Shown here: in pieces, positions 1,541 through 64,000 of the stretch
Layout of the letters: each line of letters starts with the position of its first letter
Numbering within the stretch: the first letter of the stretch is position 1
Virus record (IMG/VR): IMGVR_UViG_3300043436_003448
Coordinates: 1 to 64,000 of that record
Strand: one strand, 5' to 3'
DNA length: 64,000 nt
Source: a virus
Translations under genes and position numbers: made by a program
Notes under the pieces: generated by a model
What the model was told of the DNA's origin: nothing
Database searches by the model: none
The model's input: only the letters and a program-made list of their open reading frames with translations

Positions 1541-1879
1541 TCATTGATAGAACAGATTGACCGCCACCTCTCCGGCCGGCGTTAATGTCGCTCCAGCATT
1601 CGGCATCGTTGTTACCGATCGAACTGACAGACCGGCATCAAATAGAACCCCGCCCGGGACAGACATTGAAACCGTTTGGCCCGCCGGGATCCCGATTCGG
1701 ATGACAGGAACATCTGAAGCCGTAGGAGCCGTTGCCTTGTTGTAAAGCTTCACAAACTGAACTGACCCGCCGGAATTTGTGATCGACCAGCCGCAGAGAA
1801 GAGTCTTTTTTGCCTGGGCAACCAGACCAGTATCGCCAGCAACCAGAGTTTGATAGGAATTCAGAATTTCAGGGATCAT
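1541..1879 (-). CDS. Small virion protein, unknown
   Basis: 112 aa, beta-rich, Ala/Val/Thr-rich, no Cys cluster or membrane segment. It resembles small phage structural proteins in composition (GGSVQFVKLYNKATAPTASD, then IPAGQTVSMSVPGG), a pattern seen in fibre or decoration-type jelly-roll proteins. It sits between the 1833-aa polyvalent gene and the PAS gene in the leftward arm. The function is not recognised. Confidence 0.6.
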   Translation of the reverse strand: MIPEILNSYQTLVAGDTGLVAQAKKTLLCGWSITNSGGSVQFVKLYNKATAPTASDVPVIRIGIPAGQTVSMSVPGGVLFDAGLSVRSVTTMPNAGATLTPAGEVAVNLFYQ

Positions 1880-1938
1880 CGAAAGAAACCTTTCTTCGGG
1901 AAAGAGATTTTCACACTCAGTCAGAAATCAAAGAAAAA

Positions 1939-4900
1939 TCAGGCAATTCCAGCCAGTCTCATATACCTGTCAACAATCAAATCAACAACAGATTTTCGGT
2001 GAAACGGGGTGTAATCCACATCGCCCACCTCGCCGCTGACGGGACCAGCATCAGCGTATTCAAACCCCTCTTCTTCGGCCGGAGAGGAGGAAGGCCCGGA
2101 TTCTGATAGCCGTTTGGCCACTCGATTGACCAAGTCTTCATCGCTGGCCGACGGCGGATCCTGCGCCCCTTCACGGGAAAGATCCCACATTTTAGCGACC
2201 CATTCAGATTCGTCTGAACCGGCGATTTCTGGGAACATGCCCGCCCATTCACTGGCAACCTGATCAAACTGCGTTGAACTCGAGTCAATCCCCCGATCTT
2301 CCGCCTGATCAATTCGCCGAGAGTTCCAGCCCATTTTGCTGATGTACTTCCGAGCTTCTTCGCGCCGATTGTGATATGGAAGTAACATGGCAATCTCTTC
2401 ATCAACCGCCGCCCGCAGATCATCGTGATTCAGATCATTCTGCCCGGCAATCTCTGGGATCAGGTCCGCGTTCGCCCGTTTCTTGATAGTCGCCTGTTTT
2501 GCGCCGGTTGACCGATTGTGCTTCTCGACTGCCTTTTCATAGTCTTTGGCTGAATCGAAATCCTCCTCCTTTGGAGCTTCTCCAGCTGGCTCAACATCGT
2601 CGGCCATTGGTGTTTCGAGTTCCGCAGGATTAAAGGAAGTCGCTTTGGCCAGTTCTTTGGCCTGCTTCTTTTCGGCTTTGGCGGATTCCTTCTTTTCAGC
2701 AACCTGCTGGGCCATTCCCTGAAGATGTTGTTCCCATGCTGCTTTCCGGGATTGACGAACTGGGGGATCAATCGACCGTTCCGGAGGCGAATAGTTGGTT
2801 TGCTCGCTGGCAGGTTTATTGAGGTTGTCAGGGTAATTGCGGGGTGAAGGAGTTTCTGAATCGCCGACGGCCGGAGAGGAAGAGTCTGCCGGCGCGGATT
2901 CACCCGATGAAGATCCTGATTCAGCACCATTCTTCGGGGCAAACTCGCCGCCCCGGCTTTCACTCGCCCCCGCTGGTTGTCGCGGGTGATCGGAGTTGCT
3001 GAAGTTTCCGCCGCCAGAATCGCCGGGATCCCGCAACGGTCGAACCCCTGCCTTTCCGGCCGCCTGCGTTTGTTGTTGCGTTACTGCTGGAGTTTGTGCC
3101 TGCTGCTGAGATCCCTGAGCCGGACCAACAACAACCCGTCCAGGAATACCCGCCGCATTTGCCCCAGACAAAGGCCGAACACCCGGAACCCCTGCCTTCC
3201 CGGCCGCCGCTGCTGAAACTGAATGAGCAGCAGTCTGAGCAGGCGAGGGAGGAGCATTTGCCGCCGCCTGAGTATTGGCAGCATGTTGGTTAATGGCATT
3301 TTGAATGATCTGATTGACAACATTGTTTCCCATTTGCTGCTTTTGAAATGCAGACGCTGGAGGAGAAACAGTAGCCACATTTGCGGCCGGAGAGGAAGGA
3401 GCCTGCGCGGGCTGAATCCCATTCGCTGCCATCGCTGATTGCATCCAAGCCGCCATCGCCGCCCCGATCGCTGCATGAGCTACAGAACGAAGAGGACCGG
3501 AACGGAAGGCTTTGTTCGCGAGAGCCATTGCACCAGCGCCGACGGCTGCATGGATGAGCGGGTGAGCGTATTTATCAACCTGAACTTCCGACATTTCCGG
3601 CCGGACATACCGATCAATCACACCGTTCATCGTTTCGTAAATGTGCAAACGAGAATACTTTTCAGCCCCGGGAGCTTCTGGTTTCTTCAAAATCACCAGA
3701 GAGGTATTCACACCGGTTTGTCTTGGCGCGTCACTCCCGGCAAAAGAGGATTCTGGAAGTTCCTCAAACTCTCCATGTTCATCAACAAATTCTGAAAATT
3801 CCGTTCTCTTCTTTCGGCTTGCTTCACGGTAAAGACGATCGCCGCCGGGAACAACCGCCACCAGTTTCCCGCCAGGCTTCAACAGACTGAAGGCGTGTTT
3901 TACGTGATCAATCGCCTGATCGTTTTCAAACGGTGGATTCATCACGATTCGATCGTATTCCCCTTTGTGCTCCAGAAAATCGCTGTGGTCAACATCATGG
4001 CCCTTCATCTTCAGGAGATCCTGAAGGCTTGAATGATGTTCAATTCCCTTCAACGTGACAGAATCACCGTGAGCAGCCTTCACCGCGTCCATGATTCGAC
4101 CGGAGCCCGCTGAAGGTTCCAGAACGCTTTGGCCGTCGCGAATGTCGGCATGTTCCATCAGCCGATCGATCACGCGAGGAGGAGTTGGATAGAAACCCTG
4201 TTCCCGATGTTCTCGGTGGATCTTCTTTTCAAGTTCCTTCACTGGATCTTTCTGGACGCTGCCATGTCGTTTCGCCTGATGTGGAGCCAGTTCTCGGAGA
4301 GCGGATCTCAATTCATGATCTTCCTGAATCCCCATCGCATAGAGTCGCTGGAAGTCGTCCTTGCTGCTAAACCCGCTCCAATCATGTTTCACGCCCTTTG
4401 ACTTTGCACGATTCGCAAAGTCGAACCAATCTTTGGTCGATTGTTTGTTCAGGGTGATTCCGCGGTCTTCTGGATCTGAATGAGAATTCAATAACTTTTT
4501 CCACTTCGTTGCCTCTTGTTTCAGGCCTGGCGTATTGGCAGCAGCATCCAAAAACTTGCCGACATTGGACGGGTAGATAATCTGACGAGGCATCTTTGCA
4601 AATGCCGCAGAATCAGCAGTCACGCCAGCCTGATACGTGTTTTCACGTTCCTGATAAGTAGCGTTCTTGCTCCAGTCGTCGCCGTATTTGTCTTTCAGTT
4701 TCTGTTCTTCATGCTTTCGCTGGGCCTGTTTCCAGATTCGCTGAAGGGATTCCAGTTGAGTCAGGGCATTCATGCCGCGAAGGTGTTTTACTTCCCCGTT
4801 CTCCATCGCTTCAGAGATTGAGCGAAGACGAACAGCCTGATTCAAGTCGTGTTCCGCCGATGCCCGCGCACTGGCAGCCTGACCTGCTCGCTTATTTGTG

Positions 4901-7440
4901 TTTTCCTTCCGTTCGGCCGAGTAGGAAGCTGCCGCGCGTTCCTCGAGACGTTCGGCATGATCGGCCAACTTTTCCCCAACCGTCTTTTCACGTTCTTCCT
5001 GCTTTGCTCCAAGGATGTCCGACCGATCAACCTTTTCGCCGGCCATAGCCTGCAGGAACCGGTTTCGCTTGTCTTCGTCCGGGAAGTGGAAGCCGCCAGG
5101 AGTTCCGCCGAACTGCTTGTAGTACCAGCCGCCAAGACGTTTAGCCGCCGTGTTCATTTTGTCGTATTCGTCGCGCTCGACTCGGTTTTTCGGCGATGCC
5201 GTGAAAATATCCTGGCCGCGTTTCGAGTGAAAATTCTTAGTGAGTTCGAACCCGCCATGATCGCCGGAAACATTAACCTGAACTGCAGTTGGCTTCTTTA
5301 CTTCTTCCCGGCCGGAACGAGTCTTTTCAGACAGCAGGTTGTCATAGGCTTCTTGTTGCTCTGAGGTGAGTTTTTCGTAGCTGCCGACTTTCTTGATTGC
5401 CAGTTCGAAGTCTTTCAGGGTTTTCGGGTTTGCCGCTGCTTCCTCATTGGCTGCATTTGCTGCCTTCCAATCCGCAATGTTCTTTGCTTCCTTCTCGACG
5501 TGAGCCGCCAAGGATTCAGGAGTTTGTTTTGCAACGTGAGCAGCCAGCCGACGGACGGCAGCGCCATTCATTCCGCCAGCACCCCTGATATCGGAATCGG
5601 AGTAGATGTTTGAGATCCCATCGCCAACATTGAACGCTCGACTCATCATCGTTGCATAGACAGATTCCGCGTTCTCGCCTTTCTTGCTTTCACCGCGGAT
5701 TGCTCGCCAATCACCGAGATTCGCTGCCATGTTCCGAAGTTGTTTTGCGTCGTATCGTTTCCCGAGATCCGCAACAAAGGCTTCTTTGTTGTCGGTGTAG
5801 AATTTGTGGGCCTGCTGGAACTCATCAAAAGGAAGCTCGCCGGAATCGATCTTCCGGCTGAGTTGCATCAGGGACCGGTAATCGCCGTGCGTTTCGGGAT
5901 TGAACGAGCCGGAGAAATCTGAGTTTGATTTTTCTGGTTCTGACTGAGGCTCAGGTTCTGATTGCTGTTCAGGTTCAGGATCGGCCGGAGAGGAGGAAGC
6001 TTCCGGCGCTGGCTGTTCTTCTTCGTCTCGATGCCATCGGCCATCACGGAAAACCAGCCCTTCGGCGTTTGTGTCGCCGTCGTTTGGGCCGTCATCAGCT
6101 TTTGGCGTTTCCTGCCCATTCTTCCAGTCATTCACCGCAGAAATAACTTCCTTTGGAGTCATCGGTTTGCCGTCTTTCAACGGGACCAAATCTTGATACA
6201 TCCATTTCGATCCGCCCTCAGACGTGATTCCGGTTTTGTTTACCCGCTTCACTGTTACAGAGTTTGAGGGGTTTTCGGCCAACGCCAATGAATCACCGGG
6301 CTTCAACGTTGCCTTCAGATATTCAGCATGAGAATCCCAGAAGTTTTGAACGGACTGTTTTTTCTCCTGACTCTTCGCCAGTTGTTCAGCGTCTTTCTGC
6401 TTTCCGAGTTCCGTTCTTCCGCCATGCTGATCAATCTCGCCACGGTCAAAGGCATCTGCCTTGCCCTGCAATAAGTTGGCTTGTTTGCGAACTTCAATTG
6501 ACTTCAGGGCATTGTTTACCGATTGATCAATCCGCTTTGCTGCCTGCTTGCTGGTTCGCTGGGAAGACGCATTTCCGGAGCGACCAACGCCGAGCGGAAA
6601 GGCAGACGCCATTGATTTGTCGAATGCAGAACCGCCAGGAGTCAGGGAGTCAGCTTTGTGGTTCAGTGAATCCATTTTTTCGCGGAATGGATTAACCCGA
6701 TTCTCCATCGTCTTCGGGTTATTCAGATCCCCGGCATCCGAGTTGAACAACAGTTCCTGCCCCTTCAGATCCCCAGTCCCCTTGCCGGTATCGAACAGCG
6801 CCCCCTGTTTCGTGGCAGCATCCGGCTTGCTGAAATCAACAGGTTTCGCGGGTGAAGGTTCTGGCGTGGAATCGAGCTCAAATGATTCACTCTCAGAATC
6901 ACCAGTTGAATCATCAACGAAAATATCGGCCGGAGAGGAAGGATCTTCAGCCATCGCCTCTTCGAAGTCTTTCCCCATCGCCTCTTCAAAATCCATCGGC
7001 TCAACAGTCTTGAAATCCTCATCTTCATCGTCTTCAAACTTGAAGCCGGGATTCAGTTCCTCAAACAGTTTTCCCTGTCGATTATCAGGCCGACCACCCG
7101 AGATCCGCCCCATTTCCGCCAATGGCTTTGGTTTTGGCGCTGGCCCTTCCTCTCCGGCCGCCCCTTCCTTCTCAATCTGCTCCTTCGTCTTCCCCATCAG
7201 AGCCTTTGGCCCCTTCATGATCCGGCCATCTTCCCCGCTGATGAATACGCGAGCCCCGCGCATCGTTACCCATTTCCCGGACTCATCATCGACCCGCTTC
7301 GAGAATAGCGGCTTCTGGCGTTCTTCTGGCTTCTCAAACAGTCCCAATTGACCGGCCGCCGGTTTTTGTCTCCGAGCGTATTCGTCGACGATGGCGTTTA
7401 TCGTGTCACGGATTGAGAATTGAGCAGTTGAAGCCGTCAT
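1939..7440 (-). CDS. Giant polyvalent protein with N6-adenine methyltransferase domain
   Basis: 1833 aa. A DNA methyltransferase domain lies near residues 1080-1250: FYPTPPRVIDRL, motif I LEPSAGSG (~1107) and catalytic motif IV NPPF (~1168), typical of N6-adenine enzymes. Residues ~735-800 (AKRLGGWYYKQF...GGFHFPD) match the domain recurring in large phage polyvalent proteins. After the enzyme come hydrophobic Ala-rich helices (~1290-1345), then long Pro/Gln/Ser/Glu linkers. A short [IV]DxYxR motif occurs at the N-terminus (INAIVDEYARR), after the methyltransferase (VIDRYVRP) and at the C-terminus (LIVDRYMRL). It directly follows the portal gene. By analogy with polyvalent proteins it may be packaged and injected to protect incoming DNA; this is inferred. 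Confidence 0.85.
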   Translation of the reverse strand: MTASTAQFSIRDTINAIVDEYARRQKPAAGQLGLFEKPEERQKPLFSKRVDDESGKWVTMRGARVFISGEDGRIMKGPKALMGKTKEQIEKEGAAGEEGPAPKPKPLAEMGRISGGRPDNRQGKLFEELNPGFKFEDDEDEDFKTVEPMDFEEAMGKDFEEAMAEDPSSPADIFVDDSTGDSESESFELDSTPEPSPAKPVDFSKPDAATKQGALFDTGKGTGDLKGQELLFNSDAGDLNNPKTMENRVNPFREKMDSLNHKADSLTPGGSAFDKSMASAFPLGVGRSGNASSQRTSKQAAKRIDQSVNNALKSIEVRKQANLLQGKADAFDRGEIDQHGGRTELGKQKDAEQLAKSQEKKQSVQNFWDSHAEYLKATLKPGDSLALAENPSNSVTVKRVNKTGITSEGGSKWMYQDLVPLKDGKPMTPKEVISAVNDWKNGQETPKADDGPNDGDTNAEGLVFRDGRWHRDEEEQPAPEASSSPADPEPEQQSEPEPQSEPEKSNSDFSGSFNPETHGDYRSLMQLSRKIDSGELPFDEFQQAHKFYTDNKEAFVADLGKRYDAKQLRNMAANLGDWRAIRGESKKGENAESVYATMMSRAFNVGDGISNIYSDSDIRGAGGMNGAAVRRLAAHVAKQTPESLAAHVEKEAKNIADWKAANAANEEAAANPKTLKDFELAIKKVGSYEKLTSEQQEAYDNLLSEKTRSGREEVKKPTAVQVNVSGDHGGFELTKNFHSKRGQDIFTASPKNRVERDEYDKMNTAAKRLGGWYYKQFGGTPGGFHFPDEDKRNRFLQAMAGEKVDRSDILGAKQEEREKTVGEKLADHAERLEERAAASYSAERKENTNKRAGQAASARASAEHDLNQAVRLRSISEAMENGEVKHLRGMNALTQLESLQRIWKQAQRKHEEQKLKDKYGDDWSKNATYQERENTYQAGVTADSAAFAKMPRQIIYPSNVGKFLDAAANTPGLKQEATKWKKLLNSHSDPEDRGITLNKQSTKDWFDFANRAKSKGVKHDWSGFSSKDDFQRLYAMGIQEDHELRSALRELAPHQAKRHGSVQKDPVKELEKKIHREHREQGFYPTPPRVIDRLMEHADIRDGQSVLEPSAGSGRIMDAVKAAHGDSVTLKGIEHHSSLQDLLKMKGHDVDHSDFLEHKGEYDRIVMNPPFENDQAIDHVKHAFSLLKPGGKLVAVVPGGDRLYREASRKKRTEFSEFVDEHGEFEELPESSFAGSDAPRQTGVNTSLVILKKPEAPGAEKYSRLHIYETMNGVIDRYVRPEMSEVQVDKYAHPLIHAAVGAGAMALANKAFRSGPLRSVAHAAIGAAMAAWMQSAMAANGIQPAQAPSSPAANVATVSPPASAFQKQQMGNNVVNQIIQNAINQHAANTQAAANAPPSPAQTAAHSVSAAAAGKAGVPGVRPLSGANAAGIPGRVVVGPAQGSQQQAQTPAVTQQQTQAAGKAGVRPLRDPGDSGGGNFSNSDHPRQPAGASESRGGEFAPKNGAESGSSSGESAPADSSSPAVGDSETPSPRNYPDNLNKPASEQTNYSPPERSIDPPVRQSRKAAWEQHLQGMAQQVAEKKESAKAEKKQAKELAKATSFNPAELETPMADDVEPAGEAPKEEDFDSAKDYEKAVEKHNRSTGAKQATIKKRANADLIPEIAGQNDLNHDDLRAAVDEEIAMLLPYHNRREEARKYISKMGWNSRRIDQAEDRGIDSSSTQFDQVASEWAGMFPEIAGSDESEWVAKMWDLSREGAQDPPSASDEDLVNRVAKRLSESGPSSSPAEEEGFEYADAGPVSGEVGDVDYTPFHRKSVVDLIVDRYMRLAGIA

Positions 7441-7500: not shown

Positions 7501-9816
7501 TTAGCATTCAACTTTGGCCAATGACTTAGCCCGCATCGGCCCACCCTTGGCAATCCACTTTTTGAACAATTCAGCCGTCATGCTCGCCGCCGGCCCGCAC
7601 TTCCAGCCCTTCGGATAATTGGCCAGATACAACTTTTTGGCTTCTTTCCGATTCAGGCACCCAACAACAACTTTGAATTCATCAAAATCCCCATCCTGAT
7701 CAACCTGCTTGATCACCAGCACGAAATCTGAATCAGGGTGATTCCCAACGTAAACGTCCAGATTATCGCCGTCATTTGCTGCAGTCCGACGGAAATAGCC
7801 GTAGTGGCTGGACATTGTCCGAGACCATTCACGGCCGGAATCTGAGCAGCCCGAGCGAGTTGAGCCCTTCGGATTCTCGATGGCAATTTCCAGCCCCTTC
7901 CAAGGGAAGATTCCCTTTGAGTAGTTCCCGGCTTCTCGCTGGGCGGGAGTTGGGGAAGTGTGGGTTTCACTGGCCGCGCTGTTCAGGAGTCGGGAAGATC
8001 GGCGTTGATATTGATCAGGTTTTGCGGCCGGAGAGGAAGGAGGCCCGGATTCTTCGCCCTGATCCCCATTCACCTTACCCGCCACATGATCAATTACTCC
8101 CTGTTTCGCCGCCTTCACCTCTCCGGCCGCCTTCACATGCTCATGAGCAGCATCAATCTGGTTTCCGAACCCAGTTCCTTTCGGGAATTGCATCCCGTTA
8201 TTCATCCCGGCCGCAGCAGCCGCCGCATCCTGATCAGACTTCCTCAGCATTCTCTCATTCGGATTGTCTAGGCTCACCCCGATTGCCTCAGCAACATCCT
8301 TTTCAGGAATCCCGAGCCCCATTTCCCAAGCCGTCCGATACCCGTCCAACTTGTCTTTGACGTTGTCACTTTCCAACTCATGCTTCAGATCAAACTGCCA
8401 ACTTTCCGTTTCCGGCCAATTCGCCAGCTGGATCGGGCGCACCAATTCATGGGTCAACGTTTCCTGAAGATTGTTGCTGTCATACATCACAATCTGAGCC
8501 AACGAATCTTTCTGGAAGTCAGCCACTGAACTCCCCAAACCCGTCGCATCCGCTTCCGTGCTCAATGTCTGCCCGATGATGTATCGCTTGATCCGATGGC
8601 CGAAATACTTGTCCTGGATGTTTACGAGCATATCCATGCCCGCAAAACCCGGCTCCACGATCCGCAAATCGTAAACAGCTGAATCCATGCCCAGAGGCTT
8701 CGGGAAGAAGATTTGATTCCTTCCGAACGCCATTCGGTTTTTCGCCGCTTCCATCACTGAGCGTTTCGCCTCAGCATCCCCGGACGGGTATTCATAAATT
8801 TCAATGCCGCCGGCCGAGCGTTCCATGTACTCCATCAGGAAGCCAAGAATCTCCTGCTTCAGGAACCATTCGTTGTAAATTCGGTCCCTGATCCCGACGC
8901 CGTGAATTCGACCGGCCTTCCGAGGATTGTGGTATTCCGCATCTTCAATCATGTGCTTGTGGCAAATGATCGTTTGGCGTTCGGCCGGAGAGAGGAAGAT
9001 TGCCGCGCCGCTGTTCGTGTACTCAATATTTTGAATGCCGCGGATTCGGGCATCCTTCGGAATCACTGGAGAAACGCGGACGCCCATTTGATCGGGAAAG
9101 GCACCGGGAGGCATTTTTTCGCCGTCATCATACCGAAAAACAACCTTATCCCCGTGAATGTGCTTCCAGCCGTTCGAATCAGCATGTTTCGCGCGCGGGT
9201 AGCAGTACATTTTCCCGCCGATGTTCCCGTGCCCGTAGGTATGCTGAATTGCCGATCGGCCAATCCAAATCCCATCCATTAGGCAACGACGGTATTCCGT
9301 CCAACGGCGAATTCGCTTGATGATCTTTGTCAGTTCGGCCGCCACAGACTTCTGAGCAGGGCTCTTTGTGTCTTCCGGGACGATTGACCAATCCAGAAGT
9401 GCCGTCATTCGCTGGCGAATCTCCAGGCATTCCATAATGCCCAGATCCTTGCGCATCAACAGGGCATCATTCGGATTCGCTTCCAAAGACTCATCGGACG
9501 GGAGGTAAGTTTTGGCCTGACTCCCGATCTTGCTGGCAAACGTCATCGCATGAGGGGCAACGTCCTGGCCGAACAATGGAGGAGCCCCGGGAATATCGCT
9601 CGCCGGATCTTTGGTTCTTTCAATCCAGTTGTTGACGAAGCTTGCAACCTTTTCCCGCTCGCCAGCATTTTTCCCGCCGCCGTAGCCATCAGGATTCAGG
9701 CGAAACGCGATTCCTCCGGGAGCATCGAAAACATGGTCGGCAGACTTATTGAGCAAAGCCGCCGCGCTGAAGGATTCCGCACGGTTGAATTTGTTGGAAT
9801 TTCCTGAAGTATTCAT
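7501..9816 (-). CDS. Portal protein (Mu gp29/DUF935-like) fused to inorganic-pyrophosphatase-like domain
   Basis: 771 aa from the ATG at 9816; a TTG five codons upstream is possible. Residues ~70-560 have the layout of Mu gp29-type portals, the dodecameric DNA gate of the capsid: MECLEIRQRMTALLDWSIVP, a helical stem, then QTLSTEADATGLGSSVAD. The last ~120 residues (GLEIAIENPKGSTRSG, HYGYFRRTAANDGDNLDVYVG, FDEFKVVVGC) match the inorganic-pyrophosphatase-like domain often appended to Mu-type phage proteins. A Ser/Pro linker joins the two. It lies ~21 kb downstream of the terminase, far from the usual adjacency. Confidence 0.8.
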   Translation of the reverse strand: MNTSGNSNKFNRAESFSAAALLNKSADHVFDAPGGIAFRLNPDGYGGGKNAGEREKVASFVNNWIERTKDPASDIPGAPPLFGQDVAPHAMTFASKIGSQAKTYLPSDESLEANPNDALLMRKDLGIMECLEIRQRMTALLDWSIVPEDTKSPAQKSVAAELTKIIKRIRRWTEYRRCLMDGIWIGRSAIQHTYGHGNIGGKMYCYPRAKHADSNGWKHIHGDKVVFRYDDGEKMPPGAFPDQMGVRVSPVIPKDARIRGIQNIEYTNSGAAIFLSPAERQTIICHKHMIEDAEYHNPRKAGRIHGVGIRDRIYNEWFLKQEILGFLMEYMERSAGGIEIYEYPSGDAEAKRSVMEAAKNRMAFGRNQIFFPKPLGMDSAVYDLRIVEPGFAGMDMLVNIQDKYFGHRIKRYIIGQTLSTEADATGLGSSVADFQKDSLAQIVMYDSNNLQETLTHELVRPIQLANWPETESWQFDLKHELESDNVKDKLDGYRTAWEMGLGIPEKDVAEAIGVSLDNPNERMLRKSDQDAAAAAAGMNNGMQFPKGTGFGNQIDAAHEHVKAAGEVKAAKQGVIDHVAGKVNGDQGEESGPPSSPAAKPDQYQRRSSRLLNSAASETHTSPTPAQREAGNYSKGIFPWKGLEIAIENPKGSTRSGCSDSGREWSRTMSSHYGYFRRTAANDGDNLDVYVGNHPDSDFVLVIKQVDQDGDFDEFKVVVGCLNRKEAKKLYLANYPKGWKCGPAASMTAELFKKWIAKGGPMRAKSLAKVEC

Positions 9817-9841
9817 AGATTCAGCTTTCAAATACCGTGCA

Positions 9842-9859: not shown

Positions 9860-10093
9860 TCAGGAGTCGAACAAAAGGCACGTTTCACAGACAGCCAAAT
9901 TCTGCTTCAGTTCTTTCACGCCCACCTTTTCGGCCGAAGAGGAGTGGCGACGATCAATTTCGCGCTCAAAATCAATGGAATCTCTGACGGTGCTCATGTT
10001 CTGGAGTTGACAGCGAAAGATAGTGATTGTCGCACCGCAGGAACAGGCGTTTGTGGCAACTACGCCTCCAAGATAGCCGCATTTCTTGGCCAT
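9860..10093 (-). CDS. Small Cys-containing protein, unknown
   Basis: 77 aa. Cysteines occur as C, CSC, C and a terminal CETC, so metal binding is possible. The middle is helical and charged (STVRDSIDFEREIDRRH). It contains SSSAEK, encoded by one copy of the dispersed CGGCCG word. No good ribosome site is seen, so the start is uncertain. It fits the leftward operon ahead of the portal. The gene call itself is moderate. Confidence 0.45.
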   Translation of the reverse strand: MAKKCGYLGGVVATNACSCGATITIFRCQLQNMSTVRDSIDFEREIDRRHSSSAEKVGVKELKQNLAVCETCLLFDS

Positions 10094-50251: not shown

Positions 50252-50285
50252 AAGCTGGGAAATCGCAAGGTTTTCCAGCTTTTTT
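50252..50285 (+). terminator. Terminator after the tRNA-derived core
   Basis: AAGCTGGGAAA and TTTTCCAGCTT with a T run. It probably restores termination of the host tRNA after integration. Confidence 0.75.
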
Positions 50286-50320
50286 CATGCGCCGAACGGT
50301 TTTTTGGCCTTCCGACGCAA

Positions 50321-50338
50321 TGTCACATACATGCTACA
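50321..50338. promoter_or_regulatory. Palindrome site k
   Basis: TGTCACATACATGCTACA, between attP core and integrase, 95 nt before its ATG. Confidence 0.55.
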
Positions 50339-50433
50339 AGATGCGATTGGATAGCACTAGATAAGCCTCGCCAGTAGCATTTTGGTAGCACAGACGCACA
50401 AGGTAGCACCAAAATTCAGCCAGAGACCTGCCC

Positions 50434-53036: not shown

Positions 53037-53178
53037 TGTGCAATTGCTCAACCAGTGGCGATCGGCGAGGAAAGGCCCCAGCTTCATAAAGCTGGGCCGA
53101 TTCATCAGGTACAAGTCTGATGAGCTTCAGGAATGGATTGACAAGCGACAAGTTAAGACGAATCTGAAGTTGGTTTGA
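52969..53178 (+). CDS. Excisionase/MerR-like helix-turn-helix protein
   Basis: 69 aa. LLTPRQAAEKLQVDVQLLNQ and the wing WRSARKGPSFIKLGRFIRYK are the winged HTH of the excisionase/HTH_17 group; DELQEWIDKR closes it. An ATG nearby at 52960 is equally possible. It may direct integrase towards excision or control early genes. Confidence 0.75.
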   Translation: MSVSVTQPELLTPRQAAEKLQVDVQLLNQWRSARKGPSFIKLGRFIRYKSDELQEWIDKRQVKTNLKLV

Positions 53179-54336: not shown

Positions 54337-55434
54337 ATGAGCACAGCACTTTCAACCCAAACGCAACCGGCCGGAGAGGGAAGGCCAAATTCTGGCACGA
54401 TCACCCGCCCTGGCTTCAACTCTGCTGATTCTTACCGGCTTTGCCATCAGCTTTCGAAGGTATTCGCCGCGAGTCACCTGGTACCAACGTTGTACCGAGC
54501 CAGCGAAGCGAATTGCATGATTGCCATTAGCATGGCCAGTCGGATGCAAATGGATCCTCTGACCGTCATGCAGAACCTTTTCATCATCCAGGGCAAGCCG
54601 AGCTTTTCCGCTCAGTTCCTGATTGCCAGCTGGAACGCTTGCGGCCGTTTCTCGCCGATTCGCTACCAATGGACCGAGAAACGCGACGGATGCCGAGCGA
54701 CTTCCCGGGATCTTCAAACCGGCGAAGAGTTGGTTGGAACACTGGTCACAATCGCGATGGCAAAGGCTGAAGGCTGGTACGGAAAGCCGGGGAGCAAATG
54801 GCAGACGATGCCGGAACTGATGCTTCAGTATCGCGCCGCCGCGTTTCTGGTCCGCACGTATGGGGCTGAAATCGCTCTGGGAATGAGCACAACGGAAGAG
54901 GCTGAAGACGTTTCCGGGACGCGAGCCGTTGACCCGACCTCCGGCGATATGGTGAAATTGGCGGTTTCGCCAATCGAGCCGCCAACGGTGAAGGTTGAGG
55001 TTATTGAGTCAACTCCTGAGACGGCTGAAGTGATTGAAGCAACGGTTGAACCCTCTTCCTCTTCGGCCGTAACTGTCGTTGAAGCTCCTGTTCTTTCGTC
55101 CGTGACTCCTGTTGTTTCAAATGCTGCTCCTGTTGTTTCAACCGAATCAGTATCCGCATCAGCAGTTGAGGACGAAGCCCCCGTTTCCCCTGAAACGCTG
55201 GCCTACCTCGGTGAACTGGTTAAAGAGATCAATCCACCGAAAGAAAAATGGGTGGCAACACTCCATAAGAAATACGGTGTGACCTCCGCGAAACTGCTCA
55301 ATGAGAAGCAGGCTCAAGCCGTCGTGAAGTGGGCGAAATCTCAGGTTGAATCTCTTCGCCTCACAAAATGGACGGCTGGACAAGGCGAAGCGAGGGAGGC
55401 GAGCGCAGAGGCCGCCCCCTTTCAGACAACCTGA
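54337..55434 (+). CDS. RecT-like ssDNA annealing protein
   Basis: 365 aa. ISMASRMQMDPLTVMQNLFI and IQGKPSFSAQFLIASWNACG match the RecT family core; helix-rich followed by a long Val/Glu/Ser linker (PSSSSAVTVVEAPV) and an extra helical C-terminus (TLAYLGELVKEI). It anneals ssDNA during recombination or repair. ATG with no strong ribosome site. Confidence 0.75.
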   Translation: MSTALSTQTQPAGEGRPNSGTITRPGFNSADSYRLCHQLSKVFAASHLVPTLYRASEANCMIAISMASRMQMDPLTVMQNLFIIQGKPSFSAQFLIASWNACGRFSPIRYQWTEKRDGCRATSRDLQTGEELVGTLVTIAMAKAEGWYGKPGSKWQTMPELMLQYRAAAFLVRTYGAEIALGMSTTEEAEDVSGTRAVDPTSGDMVKLAVSPIEPPTVKVEVIESTPETAEVIEATVEPSSSSAVTVVEAPVLSSVTPVVSNAAPVVSTESVSASAVEDEAPVSPETLAYLGELVKEINPPKEKWVATLHKKYGVTSAKLLNEKQAQAVVKWAKSQVESLRLTKWTAGQGEAREASAEAAPFQTT

Positions 55435-55643: not shown

Positions 55644-56483
55644 ATGAACACAAGAACCGGAACTGGTATCACTGCAGACGACATGGAAGCAATTGATGAT
55701 CTTGGTGGTGACTTTGCACCGGGACCACAGGGAATCGATGAGAACTATGAGTTCGATTCCTCGGATGTTGATGAAAAGGAGTTGGATACGTCCGGCATTC
55801 TCGATCAGGAAGGCTGGTATCACTTCGAGATCACGAAAGTTGACTTGGTTCTCGGACTGTTGGGCGATGACGGCAAAGAGAATACGCCGCATATCAATGT
55901 GACGTGCAAGTCACTTAACAGTGTTCGCGGTCAGAGTCCGGTAGGCAGTGTTCTTTGGCACAAAATCTTCGTCGGAGCCAAAGGAGGCGGGCCACCAAAA
56001 CAGGGCTCAATTGATTCCATGTTCCGGTTCGGTGTTGGTGTCGGCCTGATGAAGTGGGGCAAAAAGACGAATCCAGACGGGACTGAAAAGTCTGTTTTGG
56101 TTCTCGCCAGCAATAACAGCACGAAGGTTCCGCCAGCAGTCTGGAAAACCATCGTCGGCGCTCAGTTCATCGCTCAGGTTCAGAAGGAAAAGCAGCAGGA
56201 AGGCTCAAACTACAAGCCTCAGTTCAAAATTCCAATGGGCAAAGCCTATCGCCCTGATCATCCGGACGTGAGCCACGTTCAGAAGAACATCGAAGCTCTG
56301 GAATCCATCGGCATTAAGATTTCGACGACTGCCCCGACCCAGACGGAGCAGAAGGCCAAAGCAGCCTACAAGACTGCAGCCGATACCGCTGGCCCTTCCT
56401 CTTCGGCCGGAGGAGGACAGCCGCCAGCTAAGGTTGCGACTGCTGCGCCTGCAGGTGATAGCTTCGACATGGATTCTCTTTGA
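55644..56483 (+). CDS. ssDNA-binding-like protein (DUF669-type)
   Basis: 279 aa. Beta-rich core (GWYHFEITKVDLVLG, INVTCKSLN, VLWHKIFVGAKGG, WKTIVGAQFIAQVQKEK) and an acidic-hydrophobic end DSFDMDSL, as in SSB tails. Such proteins coat ssDNA next to RecT-like recombinases. SSSAGGG is a dispersed-word copy. Family by pattern. Confidence 0.6.
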   Translation: MNTRTGTGITADDMEAIDDLGGDFAPGPQGIDENYEFDSSDVDEKELDTSGILDQEGWYHFEITKVDLVLGLLGDDGKENTPHINVTCKSLNSVRGQSPVGSVLWHKIFVGAKGGGPPKQGSIDSMFRFGVGVGLMKWGKKTNPDGTEKSVLVLASNNSTKVPPAVWKTIVGAQFIAQVQKEKQQEGSNYKPQFKIPMGKAYRPDHPDVSHVQKNIEALESIGIKISTTAPTQTEQKAKAAYKTAADTAGPSSSAGGGQPPAKVATAAPAGDSFDMDSL

Positions 56484-57520: not shown

Positions 57521-58321
57521 ATGAATGACCTACTCTCAAACGGACTGAAATCCATCGTTGAACTGGCCAGAACTGAAACCCTGAAACCAGCGTATGAGTG
57601 CGCTGAGCAGATCGTTTTCCTTGATCGATTCACCGGAAATCAAGTTGAAGTCGACAAGCAGAAGCCAACCACAAAACACACGCTCGACAACATTGATTCG
57701 CTGATTAACTTTATCGACCAGCGAGCGGACGAAGACGGACATGTGCCCTACATCTTCATCCGGCCAACCAGTATCGTCTGCATTCTGGACTACTCCGAAT
57801 TCCGCGTTCATCAGATCACAGTCCCTCTCTCTCAATCGCCAATTCTCTCCTACCTCTCAAAGGTCGCCGGGAATAACTTCGAGCCAAAAGAGGCAATCCG
57901 CTCGCTGAAGTACAACCTGAAATCGGCGATCCTGACCGATAACCCGATTCCATCCCTTCAGACGCTGAAATTCAGTTCCTCCTCTTCGGCCGAACATGAA
58001 ACCAACTGGACAAGCGAAGGCGTCTCGAAAAGCCTGCAATCGTCTGTCACCGGCGCGGCAACAGTCCCGGAAGAATTCTCGGTTCAGTTCGAGATGTATC
58101 CAGCAATCACCGTTGAACTGGAAGCCGCTGGTTCTGTCACCGTGGAAATGGAACTCCATGTTGACCCGACGAAGCAAACCCTCTCTTTCCGGCCGTTCCC
58201 CGGATCGATCGATCGGGCAATCTTGATGGCCCAGCAGGACGTTCAGAAAACAGTTGTAAAGAAGCTAATTGGCGCTCAACGCGAGCCGCTGTCTCACCTT
58301 GTCTTTCTCGGTCAGCCCTGA
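57521..58321 (+). CDS. DUF2303-like protein
   Basis: 266 aa. Order of segments (LINFIDQRADEDGHVPYIFI, ILDYSEFRVHQITVPL, then NFEPKEAIRSLKYNL) resembles the DUF2303 family of phage recombination modules, whose function is not known. SSSSSAEH is a dispersed-word copy. Medium confidence in the family, high in the gene. Confidence 0.55.
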   Translation: MNDLLSNGLKSIVELARTETLKPAYECAEQIVFLDRFTGNQVEVDKQKPTTKHTLDNIDSLINFIDQRADEDGHVPYIFIRPTSIVCILDYSEFRVHQITVPLSQSPILSYLSKVAGNNFEPKEAIRSLKYNLKSAILTDNPIPSLQTLKFSSSSSAEHETNWTSEGVSKSLQSSVTGAATVPEEFSVQFEMYPAITVELEAAGSVTVEMELHVDPTKQTLSFRPFPGSIDRAILMAQQDVQKTVVKKLIGAQREPLSHLVFLGQP

Positions 58322-58464: not shown

Positions 58465-58743
58465 ATGCTGGTTTTGTCTCGAAAACGTGGCGAGATTATC
58501 GACCTCCCGGAACTCGGAGTGTCATTCAAAATCATCGACTTCAAATCCGCTGGCATTGTTTCAGTCGGCATCGAAGCACCGGCAAACATTCGCGTTCACC
58601 GTCGCGAGATTCTTGAGAAGATCGAAGCTCAGGAAAACGACACGCCAGCCGCAGAAACTGAACCTGTTCAGCCCGCTCCACTCTGGGCGAAGAAGCAGAG
58701 ACGAAACAAGAAAGAGAACAATAAGGAAGGCCAGCGATCATGA
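58465..58743 (+). CDS. csrA: CsrA-family RNA-binding regulator
   Basis: 92 aa. MLVLSRKRGEIIDLPELG, VSVGIEAPANIRVHRREIL match the CsrA core; residues 56-92 are a charged Lys/Asn-rich extension. CsrA dimers bind GGA in RNA hairpins near ribosome sites and block or activate translation. AAGGA precedes the ATG. The stop overlaps the RecD-N start (ATGA). Targets could be host or phage mRNA. Confidence 0.9.
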   Translation: MLVLSRKRGEIIDLPELGVSFKIIDFKSAGIVSVGIEAPANIRVHRREILEKIEAQENDTPAAETEPVQPAPLWAKKQRRNKKENNKEGQRS

Positions 58744-60023
58744 CTCAGGAAACCCTCACGGGCGTACTGAGTAAGATTATTTGGTCCTCACCTGAAGACG
58801 GCAACGATTACAAAATTGCCAAGCTTTCAACCGGCCAAACAGTTCTCGGATATGCCCCGGAAAATGAATTTGTCATCGGGCAAACTTACACATTCCAAGG
58901 GAACTCGAAACTTGGAAAAGAATATCGTGGAGTGAAAGAACGTCAGTTCCATTTCACGAAATTCGAACGGCAGGAACCCCATTCACGGATCGGGCTGGTT
59001 CACTACCTTGAAAAGTTCTGTCCAGGAATCGGCCCCACACTGGCCGGAAGGATCTTTGACAAGTACCAGCAGGAAGCCGTCTCGAAGCTTCGCACCTCTC
59101 CGGCCGAAGTTGCTGAGGCTATTCCCGGCATTTCCTTTGAAGTCGCTCAGGCGGCATCTGAGGAGCTGCAGAAGAACGTGAAATTCGAGGAAACCCGGAT
59201 TGAGTTGAACCAGTTGTTCGCCGGCCGCGGATTCAGCAAACAACTGATCAACATGACTCTTAAGAAATGGGGAGTTCAGGCAGCCGCCAGAATTCGCCGA
59301 GATCCCTTTTGTTTATTGGTTGAAGGTTTCCCGTCCGCTGGCTTCGCTCGCTGCGATCGGCTTTACATCGAACAGGGCAAAAAGCTGTACCGGCTGAAAA
59401 GGTTGATGCTGTTCATCTGGCATCAGGTCAGGGAATCACTGGAAGGGCATACCTGGCATGATGCCAAAGAGATCATCAGCAAGTTGCGCCGAGACGCCTC
59501 AGTGAGCGATGAAGGCCGGGATTCAATGATATCGGCCGACAAGAGGATTCTTCGGGCGATTGAGTTGGGTGTCAGATCCGGTTGGCTAGCCATCAAGAAA
59601 ACGAGTCAGGGAATTTTCGTTGCCGAAGGTAAGTCGGCAGAGAATGAAAACACGATTTCCCAAGTCGTTTTGAACATCGTAAACGGCCGGGAAGAGGTGA
59701 GCCCGATTGAAGGGTTTTACTTGCTGACGGAGCAAAGAAGAATTGAGGAAGAGGCTGAGGAGGAGCAGGACGAATGGGAGGAATCTCAGAGGCCTGCTGA
59801 GGTCGAATTGTCGGCCGAGGAGAAGGCGGCAATTGGGCGCAAAACTGGGATCTGCCAGTTTTGCAATCGAGTTCTGACTCATCAGGAAAGCAAGGCCCGG
59901 GGATACGGCCCGACATGTGCGCAGAAAAACGGATTGCCCTGGTCTGCATGGATCGGGAATGGAGCTGACGGCTGGGCTGACGGGGTTTCTTTGAGTCTTC
60001 AAGCAGAAGTGGGAGCAGAGTAA
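58740..60023 (+). CDS. RecD2-like N-terminal half (OB and HhH domains)
   Basis: 427 aa. Residues ~1-75 resemble the OB-like barrel (TGVLSKIIWSSPEDGNDYKI), residues ~85-150 a helix-hairpin-helix set (FCPGIGPTLAGRIFDKY), both normal in RecD2. The helicase motor is missing and lies at 60573. The C-terminus adds a zinc module CQFCNRVLTHQESKARGYGP followed by TC, DUF6011-like. A split of one helicase into two proteins with two small genes between. Confidence 0.7.
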   Translation: MTQETLTGVLSKIIWSSPEDGNDYKIAKLSTGQTVLGYAPENEFVIGQTYTFQGNSKLGKEYRGVKERQFHFTKFERQEPHSRIGLVHYLEKFCPGIGPTLAGRIFDKYQQEAVSKLRTSPAEVAEAIPGISFEVAQAASEELQKNVKFEETRIELNQLFAGRGFSKQLINMTLKKWGVQAAARIRRDPFCLLVEGFPSAGFARCDRLYIEQGKKLYRLKRLMLFIWHQVRESLEGHTWHDAKEIISKLRRDASVSDEGRDSMISADKRILRAIELGVRSGWLAIKKTSQGIFVAEGKSAENENTISQVVLNIVNGREEVSPIEGFYLLTEQRRIEEEAEEEQDEWEESQRPAEVELSAEEKAAIGRKTGICQFCNRVLTHQESKARGYGPTCAQKNGLPWSAWIGNGADGWADGVSLSLQAEVGAE

Positions 60024-60025
60024 TT

Positions 60026-60277
60026 ATGAAAGTCAGAATCGAAGCAGTCATTTCAACCGCTGGCAATGATGAAGCCTATGTTGGGCATCATTTGGGGCTT
60101 GCCACCATCGGACGACCATTGAAGAAAATGGTTGTCACGTTTGAGGAAGATATCTCCCGTGAAGAACTGAAGAGCTTTCTGAAAGTCGATGCTGATCAAC
60201 TGGTGAAGTCGTTCGTCATGGGAGCAAACGCCATTCAGCTTCATTCCTTCTCTTTGCAGGTGATGCCGATCCAATGA
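60026..60277 (+). CDS. Small protein between the RecD2 halves
   Basis: 83 aa, 2 nt after the previous stop. Alpha/beta (VVTFEEDISREELKSFLKVD). Overlaps the next gene by 4 nt. Possibly a bridging or inhibitor subunit; no family recognised. Confidence 0.55.
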   Translation: MKVRIEAVISTAGNDEAYVGHHLGLATIGRPLKKMVVTFEEDISREELKSFLKVDADQLVKSFVMGANAIQLHSFSLQVMPIQ

Positions 60278-60576
60278 ACTTTGAATTACACAAAACCAAG
60301 AACACCACATTTCCGCTGGTTCAAGATACCAACGAAAAAATAATCCGAGCATGGCACAAGGCTGTTGAGGAGTTCCTTCAGGATCTCGGAATCAACCGAT
60401 TCAATGTCCATCAGTTTCGGATGCTGAAAAGTGAACATCTTGAGAAAGACAATTCAACAGAAACGTCAATCGAATTTGATGGCAAAATCATTGGTGTCAT
60501 TCGAAGCGAAATGAAACACACGGCCGCCGGTCTGAAATTCACCATCACCTGTCAAAAGGTTGTTCAACCAGCATGA
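60274..60576 (+). CDS. Small protein between the RecD2 halves
   Basis: 100 aa. Helical middle (KIIRAWHKAVEEFLQDLGI), strand-rich end. Coupled on both sides by ATGA. No family recognised. Confidence 0.55.
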   Translation: MNFELHKTKNTTFPLVQDTNEKIIRAWHKAVEEFLQDLGINRFNVHQFRMLKSEHLEKDNSTETSIEFDGKIIGVIRSEMKHTAAGLKFTITCQKVVQPA

Positions 60577-62009
60577 TCCAAGCTACATCCCCTTCCCTGG
60601 CCGTAAACCGCCGTAAGACACTTTGGCCGGACCCGGCCACCATCACCAACATTTCAGAGCACCAGCGAGAACGCCTTGCCCTCGCCCTGTCAACGCGTTT
60701 CGGAATTCTCGGAGGAACGCCAGGCACCGGGAAGACTCACACCACGATTGCCCTGATCAAAGCCCTAGCCCGGCTGCATGGCTCCCACATGATCGCATTC
60801 GTTGCGCCAACCGGGAAAGCTGCCAATCGTGGGGCTGAATTACTTTCTTCCCATTCCCTGACAATCCCGGCAACCACGATTCACCGGATCTTGGAGGTTG
60901 ACCGCAACGGCCGGGATGGAGAGGGCTGGAGCTTCAAGCGAAACAAATTCAACCGGCTGCAGCAGATGTTTTTCTTCGTCGATGAAATGTCGATGACAGA
61001 CACGGACACATTCGCCAGCTTCTGTGAAGCCCTGCCAGATGAAGCCCACGTTCTTCTGGTTGGTGATATCTACCAACTTCCACCCGTCGGACACGGTGCT
61101 CCTCTCCGTGATCTGATCAACTCCAATCAGGTTGGCTATGGAGAACTCACAGAGATCCGCCGCAACTCTGGTGACATCGTTATCGGATGCCAGAACCTGA
61201 AGAATGGCATCTACTTCCCGCCAAACACTTCCGGCCTGAATCTTGATCCCGAAGTAGGCATGAACTGGATTCACAAACCTTGCTCCCGGCCGGAGCAGCA
61301 GGTTCAAACAATGCTGAAGCTTCTGGCAACGGTCCCCAAGACATTTAACCCGATATTTGACATCCAAGTCATCTGCACGACAAATGGGAAGCTTGACCAG
61401 GCATCGGAGAAGGAGGAGAACAACCCGATCTCACGGAACGCCCTGAACAAGATTCTTCAGCCGGCATTGAATCCATCAAATCCGATCACGGGGAAAAACA
61501 GATTCGCCGTCCGGGACAAAGTGATCTGCACAAAGAACGCCATCTTTGAACTGGTGGACATCATCCGGACGGCCGGAGGAGTGGAGGTCGACGAAACCGG
61601 AACAAATGACATCGTAGCCAACGGTGAAATCGGGCAGGTCTGCGCGATTCAAGAAAAACGGGCGATCATCAAATTGATGTTCCCGCAGCGTTATATCTCC
61701 TGCCCATTGTCGGCCGGAGGAGGAGGGGGCAACGGGACCGCCGGCAACTCTGGATGTTTCGATCTTGGGTATGCAATCACATGCCACAAGAGCCAAGGAA
61801 GCCAAATGCCAATCGTGATGGTCATGCTGGACGACTCGAACGGAGCCAACTGGGTGACCAGCCGCGAATGGCATTACACCGCCATCAGCCGAGCCGAAAA
61901 AATCTGCATGACAATCGGAAAATGGGACACGTTGATGCGGCAGAGTAAGCGGGTGAGTCTGTCAGGCCGGAAAACGTTTCTCAGTGAAAAATTGCAGGGG
62001 GTAATGTGA
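60573..62009 (+). CDS. RecD-like SF1 helicase (C-terminal half)
   Basis: 478 aa. Walker A GGTPGTGKT (47-55), FFFVDEMSM (motif II), GDIYQLPPVGHG (motif III), TEIRRN (motif IV) and a UvrD-like end ITCHKSQGSQ with EWHYTAISRAE. It lacks the OB and HhH part found at 58740. A 5'-3' helicase expected to work on replication or recombination ends. LSAGGGGG is a dispersed word in reverse orientation. Confidence 0.85.
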   Translation: MIQATSPSLAVNRRKTLWPDPATITNISEHQRERLALALSTRFGILGGTPGTGKTHTTIALIKALARLHGSHMIAFVAPTGKAANRGAELLSSHSLTIPATTIHRILEVDRNGRDGEGWSFKRNKFNRLQQMFFFVDEMSMTDTDTFASFCEALPDEAHVLLVGDIYQLPPVGHGAPLRDLINSNQVGYGELTEIRRNSGDIVIGCQNLKNGIYFPPNTSGLNLDPEVGMNWIHKPCSRPEQQVQTMLKLLATVPKTFNPIFDIQVICTTNGKLDQASEKEENNPISRNALNKILQPALNPSNPITGKNRFAVRDKVICTKNAIFELVDIIRTAGGVEVDETGTNDIVANGEIGQVCAIQEKRAIIKLMFPQRYISCPLSAGGGGGNGTAGNSGCFDLGYAITCHKSQGSQMPIVMVMLDDSNGANWVTSREWHYTAISRAEKICMTIGKWDTLMRQSKRVSLSGRKTFLSEKLQGVM

Positions 62010-62173
62010 TGTTTTCAATTCTCAATCCAATGGAACTGTCAGACCTGCAATTCAACATTTTCCTGTCGCTCTTCGGCGGGATTTTCTTCCTCCTCCCGGC
62101 CGTCTTTACCCTGTACCTCCTTCACCTCACATGCAAAATCGAATCAACGAGAAAGGAAATCTCAGAACCATGA
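62009..62173 (+). CDS. 54-aa membrane peptide
   Basis: ATG overlaps the helicase stop (TGATG) and its own stop overlaps the next ATG (ATGA). One strong hydrophobic helix (IFLSLFGGIFFLLPAVFTLY) and a charged tail (CKIESTRKEISEP). A membrane peptide inside a replication operon. Unknown. Confidence 0.55.
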   Translation: MFSILNPMELSDLQFNIFLSLFGGIFFLLPAVFTLYLLHLTCKIESTRKEISEP

Positions 62174-62814
62174 GTATCCCACCAAACAGAGAAGAACGAT
62201 CAGGACGCCGCAGGGGAACTGCCAAATGCAAATCCGATCCAAAGCCCGATGATCCAACCGACATCGAATCCAGCCAGCCAGTTGTTTGCCCGTTCACGGT
62301 CATTGTGGATACCAGGGAACAATCGCCCTACCAGTTCCGCACGTTCAAGGCCGACGCGAAACACAAGACTCAATCCGGAATCATTCGTTCGTTATATATC
62401 CCGGTTGAAATAGCGACCCTGAGAACGGCCGACTATTCAGTTAAAGGCTTCGAAACTGAAATAGCGATCGAGAGAAAATCTCTCACGGACCTGTTCGGGA
62501 CTTTAGGATCCGGCCGCGAAAGGTTTGAGCGAGAACTGGAACGCCTCTCCGAATTCAAGGTCGCCCATATTGTGATTGAGGCTGACTGGAAAACGATCCT
62601 CGAGTCACCGCCGGAACGAACGAAGCTTTCTCCGAAGTCCGTTTTCCGCTCAATCAACGCATGGGAGCAGGAGTTTCCAACGATTCACTGGCAATTCATG
62701 TGGATCCGAGCCATCGCCGAGCACAAGACATTCCGCATTCTGGAAAGATTCTGGAACCAGAAGCAAAAGGCAATCGCGGAAGAAAATCGACCATTGGGCG
62801 TGACAAGTATGTGA
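62170..62814 (+). CDS. ERCC4-domain nuclease
   Basis: 214 aa from ATG 62170. VIVDTREQSPYQF, RTADYSVKGFETEIAIERKS and LGSGRERFERELERL contain the ERK-D motif of the XPF/ERCC4 nuclease core. Cuts branched DNA in recombination or repair. The N-terminal ~45 residues are basic and disordered. Confidence 0.85.
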   Translation: MSIPPNREERSGRRRGTAKCKSDPKPDDPTDIESSQPVVCPFTVIVDTREQSPYQFRTFKADAKHKTQSGIIRSLYIPVEIATLRTADYSVKGFETEIAIERKSLTDLFGTLGSGRERFERELERLSEFKVAHIVIEADWKTILESPPERTKLSPKSVFRSINAWEQEFPTIHWQFMWIRAIAEHKTFRILERFWNQKQKAIAEENRPLGVTSM

Positions 62815-62827
62815 CATCCATGTAACA
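62810..62827. promoter_or_regulatory. Palindrome site p
   Basis: TGTGACATCCATGTAACA, overlapping the ERCC4 stop, 86 nt upstream of the primase gene. Confidence 0.55.
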
Positions 62828-62913
62828 ATCGCGACCCCCTTTCCAATTCGCGCTGCTGACCGCCCGACGCTCCCGCTGGCTGCCTGACCGTCAATGCTCA
62901 GGAATGGACTTCT

Positions 62914-64000
62914 GATGGCCGATTATTCGCTCTTTCCGATCCTTTCGAAGTTTGAACGCCTCACATGGCGATCGGACAACCCCAATCTGGGGGAATGCCG
63001 TTGCCCTGGGCACGATGACTCAACAAATTCGCTGCACGTCACTATCAAACACTGTGACGATGGCGTGACAAAGTTGATGTTGAAGTGTCACGCGGGATGC
63101 CAGAACGGGGATATTCTTCGGGCAATGGGAGAGGTTTTTTCCTCGCTGTTTCCTGATCGGACAAGGCAATCGAAATCCGGAAACCCCTCCTCTTCGGCCG
63201 GAAAGGGAGGAGCCGCGAGCGCGGGCAAGAACGAGCCCAAACTGGTCAAAGTCTACGACTACCACGACTCAGACGGCCAGTTGCTCCATCAGACTCTACG
63301 CTGGGAACCAAAGCTTTTCACCCAAAGGCGCCGCGCTGAGCCGAACACCGTTTACCAGGTGAAGGGAGTTGACAGGAAATCCTTCAAAGATCCTCACGGA
63401 AACTGGTGGATCAATTCTCTCAGCGGAATTGAACCCGTCATTTACCGACTTCCCGAGATTCTTCGCGCTGACAATCGGAAATTCATCTTTCTTTGCGAAG
63501 GGGAAAAGGACGCCGATAATCTCAAGGCGAAATTCAATGTCTATTCAACCACCGTTCCAATGGGCGCAGGGAAGTGGCGACCGTCTTACACTCAGGTTTT
63601 CCGAGGCCGACGCGTAATCATCATTCCGGATACCGACAAGCCCCGGAAGGGACAAACGGATCCCGCCGCAAATGCTGGATACGATGGAGCTCGCCGAGTA
63701 GCCGCCGAACTTGTCAAAGTCGCTTTGGAAGTCCGGATTTGCTACCTCCCAAACGTCAACGACCAACTAAGCCCAAAATGGGACTTGTCAGATTGGCTTG
63801 CCGCGGGAGGCACAAAGGCCCAATTCCTTGACGCTTGCAACGATGCCCCAATTCTTCACCCCGGACATCCGGGATTGATCCCGGCAGGAATGACGGCCGC
63901 GGAGTCCGAATCAGCAATGCAGATGCCCCCGCAGTCTGATACCGCTGAATCCTCCTCCCAACTCCCGGCCGTCATTCCTCCTTTTGCTTTAGACGTATTC
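62914..64000 (+). CDS. Primase-like TOPRIM protein (partial)
   Basis: Open to the right edge, 362 codons visible. N-terminal zinc site CRCPGHDD...CHAGC, as in phage primases; then a TOPRIM fold: FLCEGEKDADNL (Glu) and VIIIPDTDK (DxD), and a following DLSDWLAAGG typical for primase-associated domains. SSSAGKGG and the final ESSSQLPAVIPP are linkers with the dispersed word or variants. It probably continues into a DUF3987 or helicase part. Confidence 0.8.

Follow-up and report, generated by a model that had tools for sequence, protein, structure and literature searches.

The virus record IMGVR_UViG_3300043436_003448 carries a short dispersed DNA word that has been conserved as a signal at the nucleic-acid level and not for its encoded protein. 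We analyzed positions 1 to 64,000 of this record (the window), which make up most of the 66-kb sequence and belong to a temperate tailed phage. The word is built from an invariant palindromic hexamer, CGGCCG, and a tract of 8-15 purines that is variable in sequence and length. We hypothesize that its copies are recognition sites for a DNA-binding factor specific to this phage lineage, polar with respect to transcription and similar to the stoperators of mycobacteriophages but lying in genes. This reading is tentative, with a probability of about 0.38. We judge it the likeliest role of the word, with an uptake-type word second, followed by RNA-level and Chi-like roles.

A preliminary description, made from the letters of the window, had reported a 15-bp word scattered about once per kb through the whole window. 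The scattered word is confirmed as real, with 50 copies of CGGCCG followed by at least 8 purines on both strands, and the positions, alternative frames (PPRP, PPGR, LLLPAE, AEEER, and AGEGR), and intergenic copies given there all check out. The recurrence of the word holds, but its length and sequence are not fixed; the purine tail is mostly 11-13 nt long, rich in GAGAGGARG, and has no fixed end sequence. Likewise, the density of about one per kb holds, but the spread over the whole window does not, as no CGGCCG lies between those at 38,333 and 47,102 and the region at 9.9-15.8 kb is nearly empty of words. The 15-mer with up to two mismatches occurs 30 times, whereas 0.17 occurrences are expected from dinucleotide shuffles. 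CGGCCG with 10 purines occurs 43 times (28 on the plus and 15 on the minus strand), whereas the backwards pattern is absent, and a weight-matrix search gave 64-67 sites against 2-5 in the reversed sequence. At least 10 purines are found in 43 of 218 CGGCCG flanks, whereas unrelated comparison words give 0 or 1. At four cores (2076, 47702, 56404, and 63195), both strands carry a purine tail, which makes these words two-sided. Chance or composition as the origin of the word is ruled out by the dinucleotide and codon shuffles and by the backwards and reversed controls.

Three relatives were found through the terminase, namely L120 (75% identity), L121 (89%), and the 48.8-kb contig G001 (90%). All three contain the word, and two of them are fragments. 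The word sites of the window are listed below; a copy is called pyrimidine-sense or purine-sense according to the strand of the word that is read as sense.

2065-2094, no single strand: two-sided word; one CGGCCG has a purine tail on each strand
2868-2884, plus: word, kept in G001
3384-3401, plus: word, kept in G001
5301-5314, minus: weak word, purine-sense, not conserved
5982-5999, plus: word
6927-6943, plus: word
7144-7160, minus: word, purine-sense, kept in G001
8025-8043, plus: word
8982-8999, plus: word, not present in G001
9931-9944, plus: word, intergenic
15850-15868, plus: word (frame PPRP), same sequence in G001
16360-16378, minus: word, purine-sense
16850-16868, plus: word, intergenic, kept in G001
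18900-18917, plus: word
21159-21172, plus: word
22204-22222, plus: word
22496-22513, plus: word
22928-22946, plus: word
25182-25199, plus: word, kept in G001 and L121
27720-27737, plus: word, kept in G001
29100-29115, plus: word (frame LLLPAE), kept in three relatives
29448-29464, minus: word, purine-sense
30489-30509, plus: word (frame PPGR), kept in G001
31076-31096, minus: word, purine-sense
32865-32884, plus: word near terminase start; tail varies among phages, always purine
34396-34412, plus: word, same sequence in G001 and L121
37308-37324, plus: word, same sequence in G001 and L121
37426-37445, plus: word, intergenic, also in L121
38333-38347, plus: weaker word, intergenic; final CGGCCG ahead of the word-free zone
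47639-47655, plus: word (AEEER), purine-sense
47690-47717, no single strand: two-sided word
47833-47850, minus: word
49115-49133, plus: word in predicted-disordered linker, minus-strand gene island; kept in G001
50042-50059, plus: word in minus-strand gene island; kept in G001
50482-50498, minus: word at integrase gene start
52475-52489, minus: weak word
53416-53433, minus: word, kept in G001
54368-54384, plus: word (AGEGR), purine-sense, not conserved
55051-55069, minus: word, kept in G001
56393-56417, no single strand: two-sided word
57976-57992, minus: word
58179-58195, minus: word
59684-59697, plus: weak word, purine-sense
59812-59826, plus: weak word, purine-sense
61711-61729, plus: word, purine-sense
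62082-62102, minus: word, intergenic
63184-63212, no single strand: two-sided word

The preliminary description had also proposed that the nucleic-acid word and not a peptide is kept, and had named codon-preserving shuffles and related phages as the means to check it. In synonymous-codon shuffles, 0.31 pyrimidine-sense and 0.81 purine-sense copies are expected, far below the 31 and 15 observed, and CGGCCG itself is found 99 times against 31. The SPA peptides are spelled TCT-CCG-GCC in 15 of 19 cases, and the SSA peptides TCT-TCG-GCC in 9 of 14. A PSSPA linker motif duplicated through the proteome at the peptide level would fit the SSPA/SSSA frame of 24 of the 31 pyrimidine-sense copies. However, codon shuffles retain the peptides yet lose the words, the SPA peptides largely share one spelling, synonymous sites are conserved, and further copies lie in other frames, in reverse orientation, or in intergenic DNA. 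The shuffles and the synonymous-site conservation already refute such a motif, and this explanation, like plain composition, is extremely improbable.

The alignments with related phages agree with the codon shuffles. At conserved degenerate residues of homologous genes, codon identity is 71.7% inside words versus 44.3% elsewhere (Fisher P=6e-8), and amino-acid identity is equal inside and outside words (0.716 and 0.711). The CGGCCG core is 88.5% identical in aligned copies versus about 68% in the flanks. Transitions but not transversions are tolerated in the tail, where the transition fraction is about 0.7 versus about 0.42 outside. With words masked before anchoring, a same-strand word was located at most 40 nt away in G001 at 18 of 32 mapped sites, against 1.0 expected. 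The copies hold their position while the surrounding linkers drift, so that both expectations of the preliminary description were borne out. Mobile-element insertion as the origin of the word was rejected on the basis of the same alignments, which contain no clean empty sites.

Polarity relative to transcription

Across the coding DNA of four phages, the pyrimidine strand of the word is sense in 58 copies and antisense in 22, and these counts are not independent because they include orthologous copies shared by relatives. Intergenic copies are pyrimidine-sense as well (6:0 or 6:1), and the orientation tracks the gene strand in the reversed gene island at 48.0-50.3 kb. For one phage pair and 32 mapped sites, G001 retains 17 of 23 pyrimidine-sense copies and 1 of 9 purine-sense copies (P=0.004). 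The bias had been tentatively attributed to the avoidance of internal ribosome sites. Such Shine-Dalgarno avoidance is not supported because, outside words, AGGAGG shows no sense depletion (11 sense, 9 antisense), a 4-nt Shine-Dalgarno match is present in only 22 of 43 genes, and codon shuffles favor purine-sense copies.

The polarity could also reflect an RNA-level element, in which the sense C/U tract and the following CGGCCG are bound by a protein or by a guanine/adenine-rich small RNA controlling mRNA fate. The pyrimidine-sense orientation and its better retention fit this idea, as do the tolerated tract transitions, which G-U wobble pairing could accommodate, and the presence of a phage gene for a CsrA-like RNA-binding protein. 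CsrA binds GGA, and its sites present GGA in a transcript hairpin loop. In the word, however, GGA falls on the purine strand and is mostly antisense, and no local RNA structure, including a hairpin with a GGCC stem, exceeded that of shuffles around words on either strand. Purine-sense and two-sided copies also occur above chance, which sense-RNA reading would not need. We regard an RNA-level role as unlikely.

Distribution and taxonomic range

The largest gap in the distribution is the following stretch.

38339-47101, no strand: word-free zone without CGGCCG; accessory content different in every relative

This zone is 8.8 kb long, and L120 and L121 are also word-empty in the matching stretch (6.3 and 5.5 kb, respectively), despite differing content. 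It consists of small plus-strand genes that begin just right of the point of divergent transcription. One of them, at 39009-40226, shares 73% identity with a gene of L165, a sister-clade phage that does not use the word, and this sequence likeness suggests exchange between the clades. The DNA common to G001 carries 0.96 words per kb and the remaining DNA 0.22 per kb (P=0.002), with a contrast of P=0.08 when the empty zone is left out. In our reading, the word marks genes of long residence and is missing from newcomers. Even spacing of words was not found, the observed spacing being compatible with random, and there was no bias of words towards gene ends.

The word is lineage-specific in the collections searched, and the true host may be unsequenced. 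Among 84,980 bacterial and archaeal genomes, the 19-mer form gave only 39 scattered singletons, a search that host words of about 12 nt could escape, and in 392 Planctomycetota genomes the word is about as common as its reversed control. When IMG/VR was scanned twice in full, with two word forms, only relatives and single copies in unrelated contigs came up. The word is thus unenriched in sampled bacteria and unrelated viruses, and therefore a signal of the phage genome as a whole is at work. These counts speak against the planctomycete or HIP1-like host word that had been suggested earlier. A planctomycete host is also unsupported because neither the phage terminase nor the tRNA half of its probable attP was found in Planctomycetota; host searches in genomes through terminase homologues and through this tRNA half likewise found no host.

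An uptake-sequence-like or other host word would require that the phage is a long-term prophage of a transformable, unsequenced, and word-filled host, in which biased uptake and recombination spread the word. The density of the word, 781 per Mb, is close to the saturation of about 750 per Mb known for the Haemophilus-type uptake signal sequence (Hin-USS) in Pasteurellaceae hosts and prophages (PMC6776037), and the richness of core over accessory DNA is as described for uptake signal sequences (USS) (PMC6776037). The strict core with a loose tract and the use of tolerant frames and linkers are also consistent, and uptake sequences likewise prefer one orientation within reading frames (PMC2346458). 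On the other side, sampled genomes gave only singletons or control-level counts, no unrelated IMG/VR virus is enriched, and the pyrimidine-sense orientation of intergenic copies is not predicted by coding tolerance. The core and accessory difference also weakens once the empty zone is removed. We consider this explanation doubtful, though it ranks next after the DNA-binding reading.

A sister clade with 48-53% terminase identity is free or nearly free of CGGCCG and has a dispersed word of its own. In L167 and close relatives, the 8-mer GCGTGACA is found in three reading frames and mostly on the gene strand, with 13 copies in 22.7 kb against 1.3 expected; in L167, the excess is about 10-fold over codon shuffles. 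Another relative, L174, has an operator-like dyad, GTGACGATATCGTCAC, that is dispersed and frequently close to gene boundaries (849, 1790, 4329, 14380, and 16790); with up to two mismatches, it gives 32 matches in the 45-kb record versus 3 for the reversed pattern. Possibly, the word represents a new type of phage-lineage signal, a fixed palindromic hexamer with a free polypurine tail placed in protein linkers across the genome and selected at the nucleotide level, with each clade of the phage family having its own word and cognate reader. As a separate observation, L164-L173 and L175 contain zero or nearly zero CGGCCG, CCGCGG, and GCCGGC, and GCGC is strongly avoided in them (61 versus 506 expected), a palindrome avoidance as under restriction pressure.

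Candidate reader and gene content

In the reading that we favor, a factor of this phage lineage would bind the CGGCCG core and the purine tract. The bound factor may act on RNA polymerase traversing the genes, in the manner of mycobacteriophage repressors at stoperators, and resident lytic genes would be kept quiet or have their expression set. Genes lately brought into the accessory zone would not yet have acquired sites. The nucleotide constraint, the kept position, the polarity, the lineage specificity, and the separate words of more distant terminase relatives were counted as support. One candidate reader lies beside the integrase. Other conserved candidates for DNA binding are at 46885-48099, 52960-53178, and 58465-58743.

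48870-50081, minus: conserved gene adjoining the integrase, candidate reader, with predicted helical, helix-turn-helix-like C-terminal segments
50173-50245, plus: partial tRNA-Lys(CTT) 3' half, probable attP
50434-51663, plus: tyrosine integrase (temperate phage)

The mechanical open reading frame of the candidate (48867-50288) starts with 68 residues (..VGLEPTTYGLR..) that result from translating the tRNA half in antisense. Its mechanical start at 50288 is probably wrong, with the gene likely starting near 50081. The word within the candidate falls in a linker with predicted disorder. At 50134-50410, beside the integrase, the tRNA half has repeated GTAGCAC motifs on its flanks; together they are a probable attP with arm sites and a lead to the host. 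The CsrA-like protein was rejected as the reader: the sister clade encodes one too, yet without such a word.

Several points weigh against a stoperator-like DNA-binding role. Stoperators have been described in short intergenic spaces (PMC9283540), whereas genes contain 60 of the 67 sites from the weight matrix (about 90%). The orientation bias is significant, but at about 2.6:1 it is not near-absolute, and the counts behind it are not independent, as stated above. The tail sequence is looser than a typical operator would have. No immunity-repressor family was detected in the genes scanned with Pfam and NCBIfam, and the candidate reader could be modeled only with low confidence (predicted local distance difference test score, pLDDT, of 57).

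Other genes of the window are given below; the gene calls were mechanical or made by hand.

7501-9831: Mu-type portal fused to an inorganic-pyrophosphatase-like domain (PF06074 and PF18823)
31054-32901: terminase
54337-55434: RecT
58465-58743: CsrA-like RNA-binding protein (TIGR00202, E=1.6e-11, under the curated cut-off)
58740-62009: RecD2-like parts

The RecD2-like helicase is apparently in two genes, with the OB/HHH part at 58740-60023 and the AAA/UvrD_C part at 60573-62009, and the RecD-like protein used as bait turned up no further relatives. An ERCC4-type nuclease (62131-62814) has relatives in the phage collection only in a Halorubrum tailed virus. A tRNA-like gene on the minus strand (37809-37889) has an abnormal anticodon call of four bases.

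With RecT, the split RecD2-like helicase, and an exonuclease, the phage recombination proteins might read the word as a Chi-like or other DNA-processing signal. The word is polar, asymmetric, and dispersed, as such a signal could be. Its orientation, however, tracks genes, including those of the reversed island, and not genome arms. Known Chi sites are 5-8 nt long, host-encoded, and protective against the recombination nuclease in one orientation, and the word is unenriched in sampled hosts. A Chi-like role is even less likely than an RNA-level one. A packaging signal and methyltransferase sites, which the preliminary description had also named, would be other conceivable roles.

Comparison with known systems

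The stoperators of Cluster A mycobacteriophages such as L5 and Bxb1 are dozens of short, asymmetric repressor sites in temperate phages, oriented with transcription and having a clade-specific consensus (PMC6550527, PMC9283540), and they are inactive when reversed (PMC9283540). The window has more than 20 dispersed asymmetric sites as well, with 50 copies, an asymmetric tail, and an integrase. Unlike stoperators, the word is mostly in genes, has a limited orientation bias and a core with a variable purine tract, and no cognate immunity repressor, which would block elongation at such sites, was identified for it.

The USS of Pasteurellaceae and the DNA uptake sequences (DUS) of Neisseria in prophages resemble the word in a density of about 0.8 per kb (0.5-0.9 per kb would be expected, with core richer than accessory DNA), and in a strict core with a looser flank (PMC6776037, PMC2346458). 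Further likenesses are in-gene copies in tolerant frames, an orientation bias in reading frames, and poorer accessory genes (PMC6776037, PMC2346458). USS and DUS are abundant in the host genome and are taken up preferentially by competent cells, whereas in the collections searched the word is confined to a single phage lineage, with no enriched genome among the 84,980 or the 392 Planctomycetota; the host is perhaps unsampled. The highly iterated palindrome HIP1 (GCGATCGC) of cyanobacteria shares an overrepresented palindromic core that is mostly in genes. HIP1 is, however, a purely palindromic host-genome word accompanied by an orphan methyltransferase, whereas the phage word adds a polar purine tail and no scanned genome is enriched in it. 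Chi and the FtsK-orienting polar sequences (KOPS) are similarly polar, purine/G-rich, and dispersed, but the word is longer and looser, follows the gene strand and not the replichore, and has no counterpart in sampled host genomes.

The word thus shares its lineage restriction, clade-specificity, and, in part, its polarity with stoperators, and its density, core-plus-tract design, and core/accessory contrast with uptake sequences. We assign it to neither because it departs from stoperators in lying mostly within genes and from uptake sequences in being unenriched in sampled hosts. It represents strong nucleotide-level selection at dozens of in-gene phage sites, independent of the peptide and with no counterpart in sampled hosts. 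If the reader is a phage regulator, control of the stoperator type would reach sites within genes and a phage group that has not been studied; if the word is of the uptake type, it would indicate that an unsequenced bacterial lineage uses a DNA-uptake dialect of its own.

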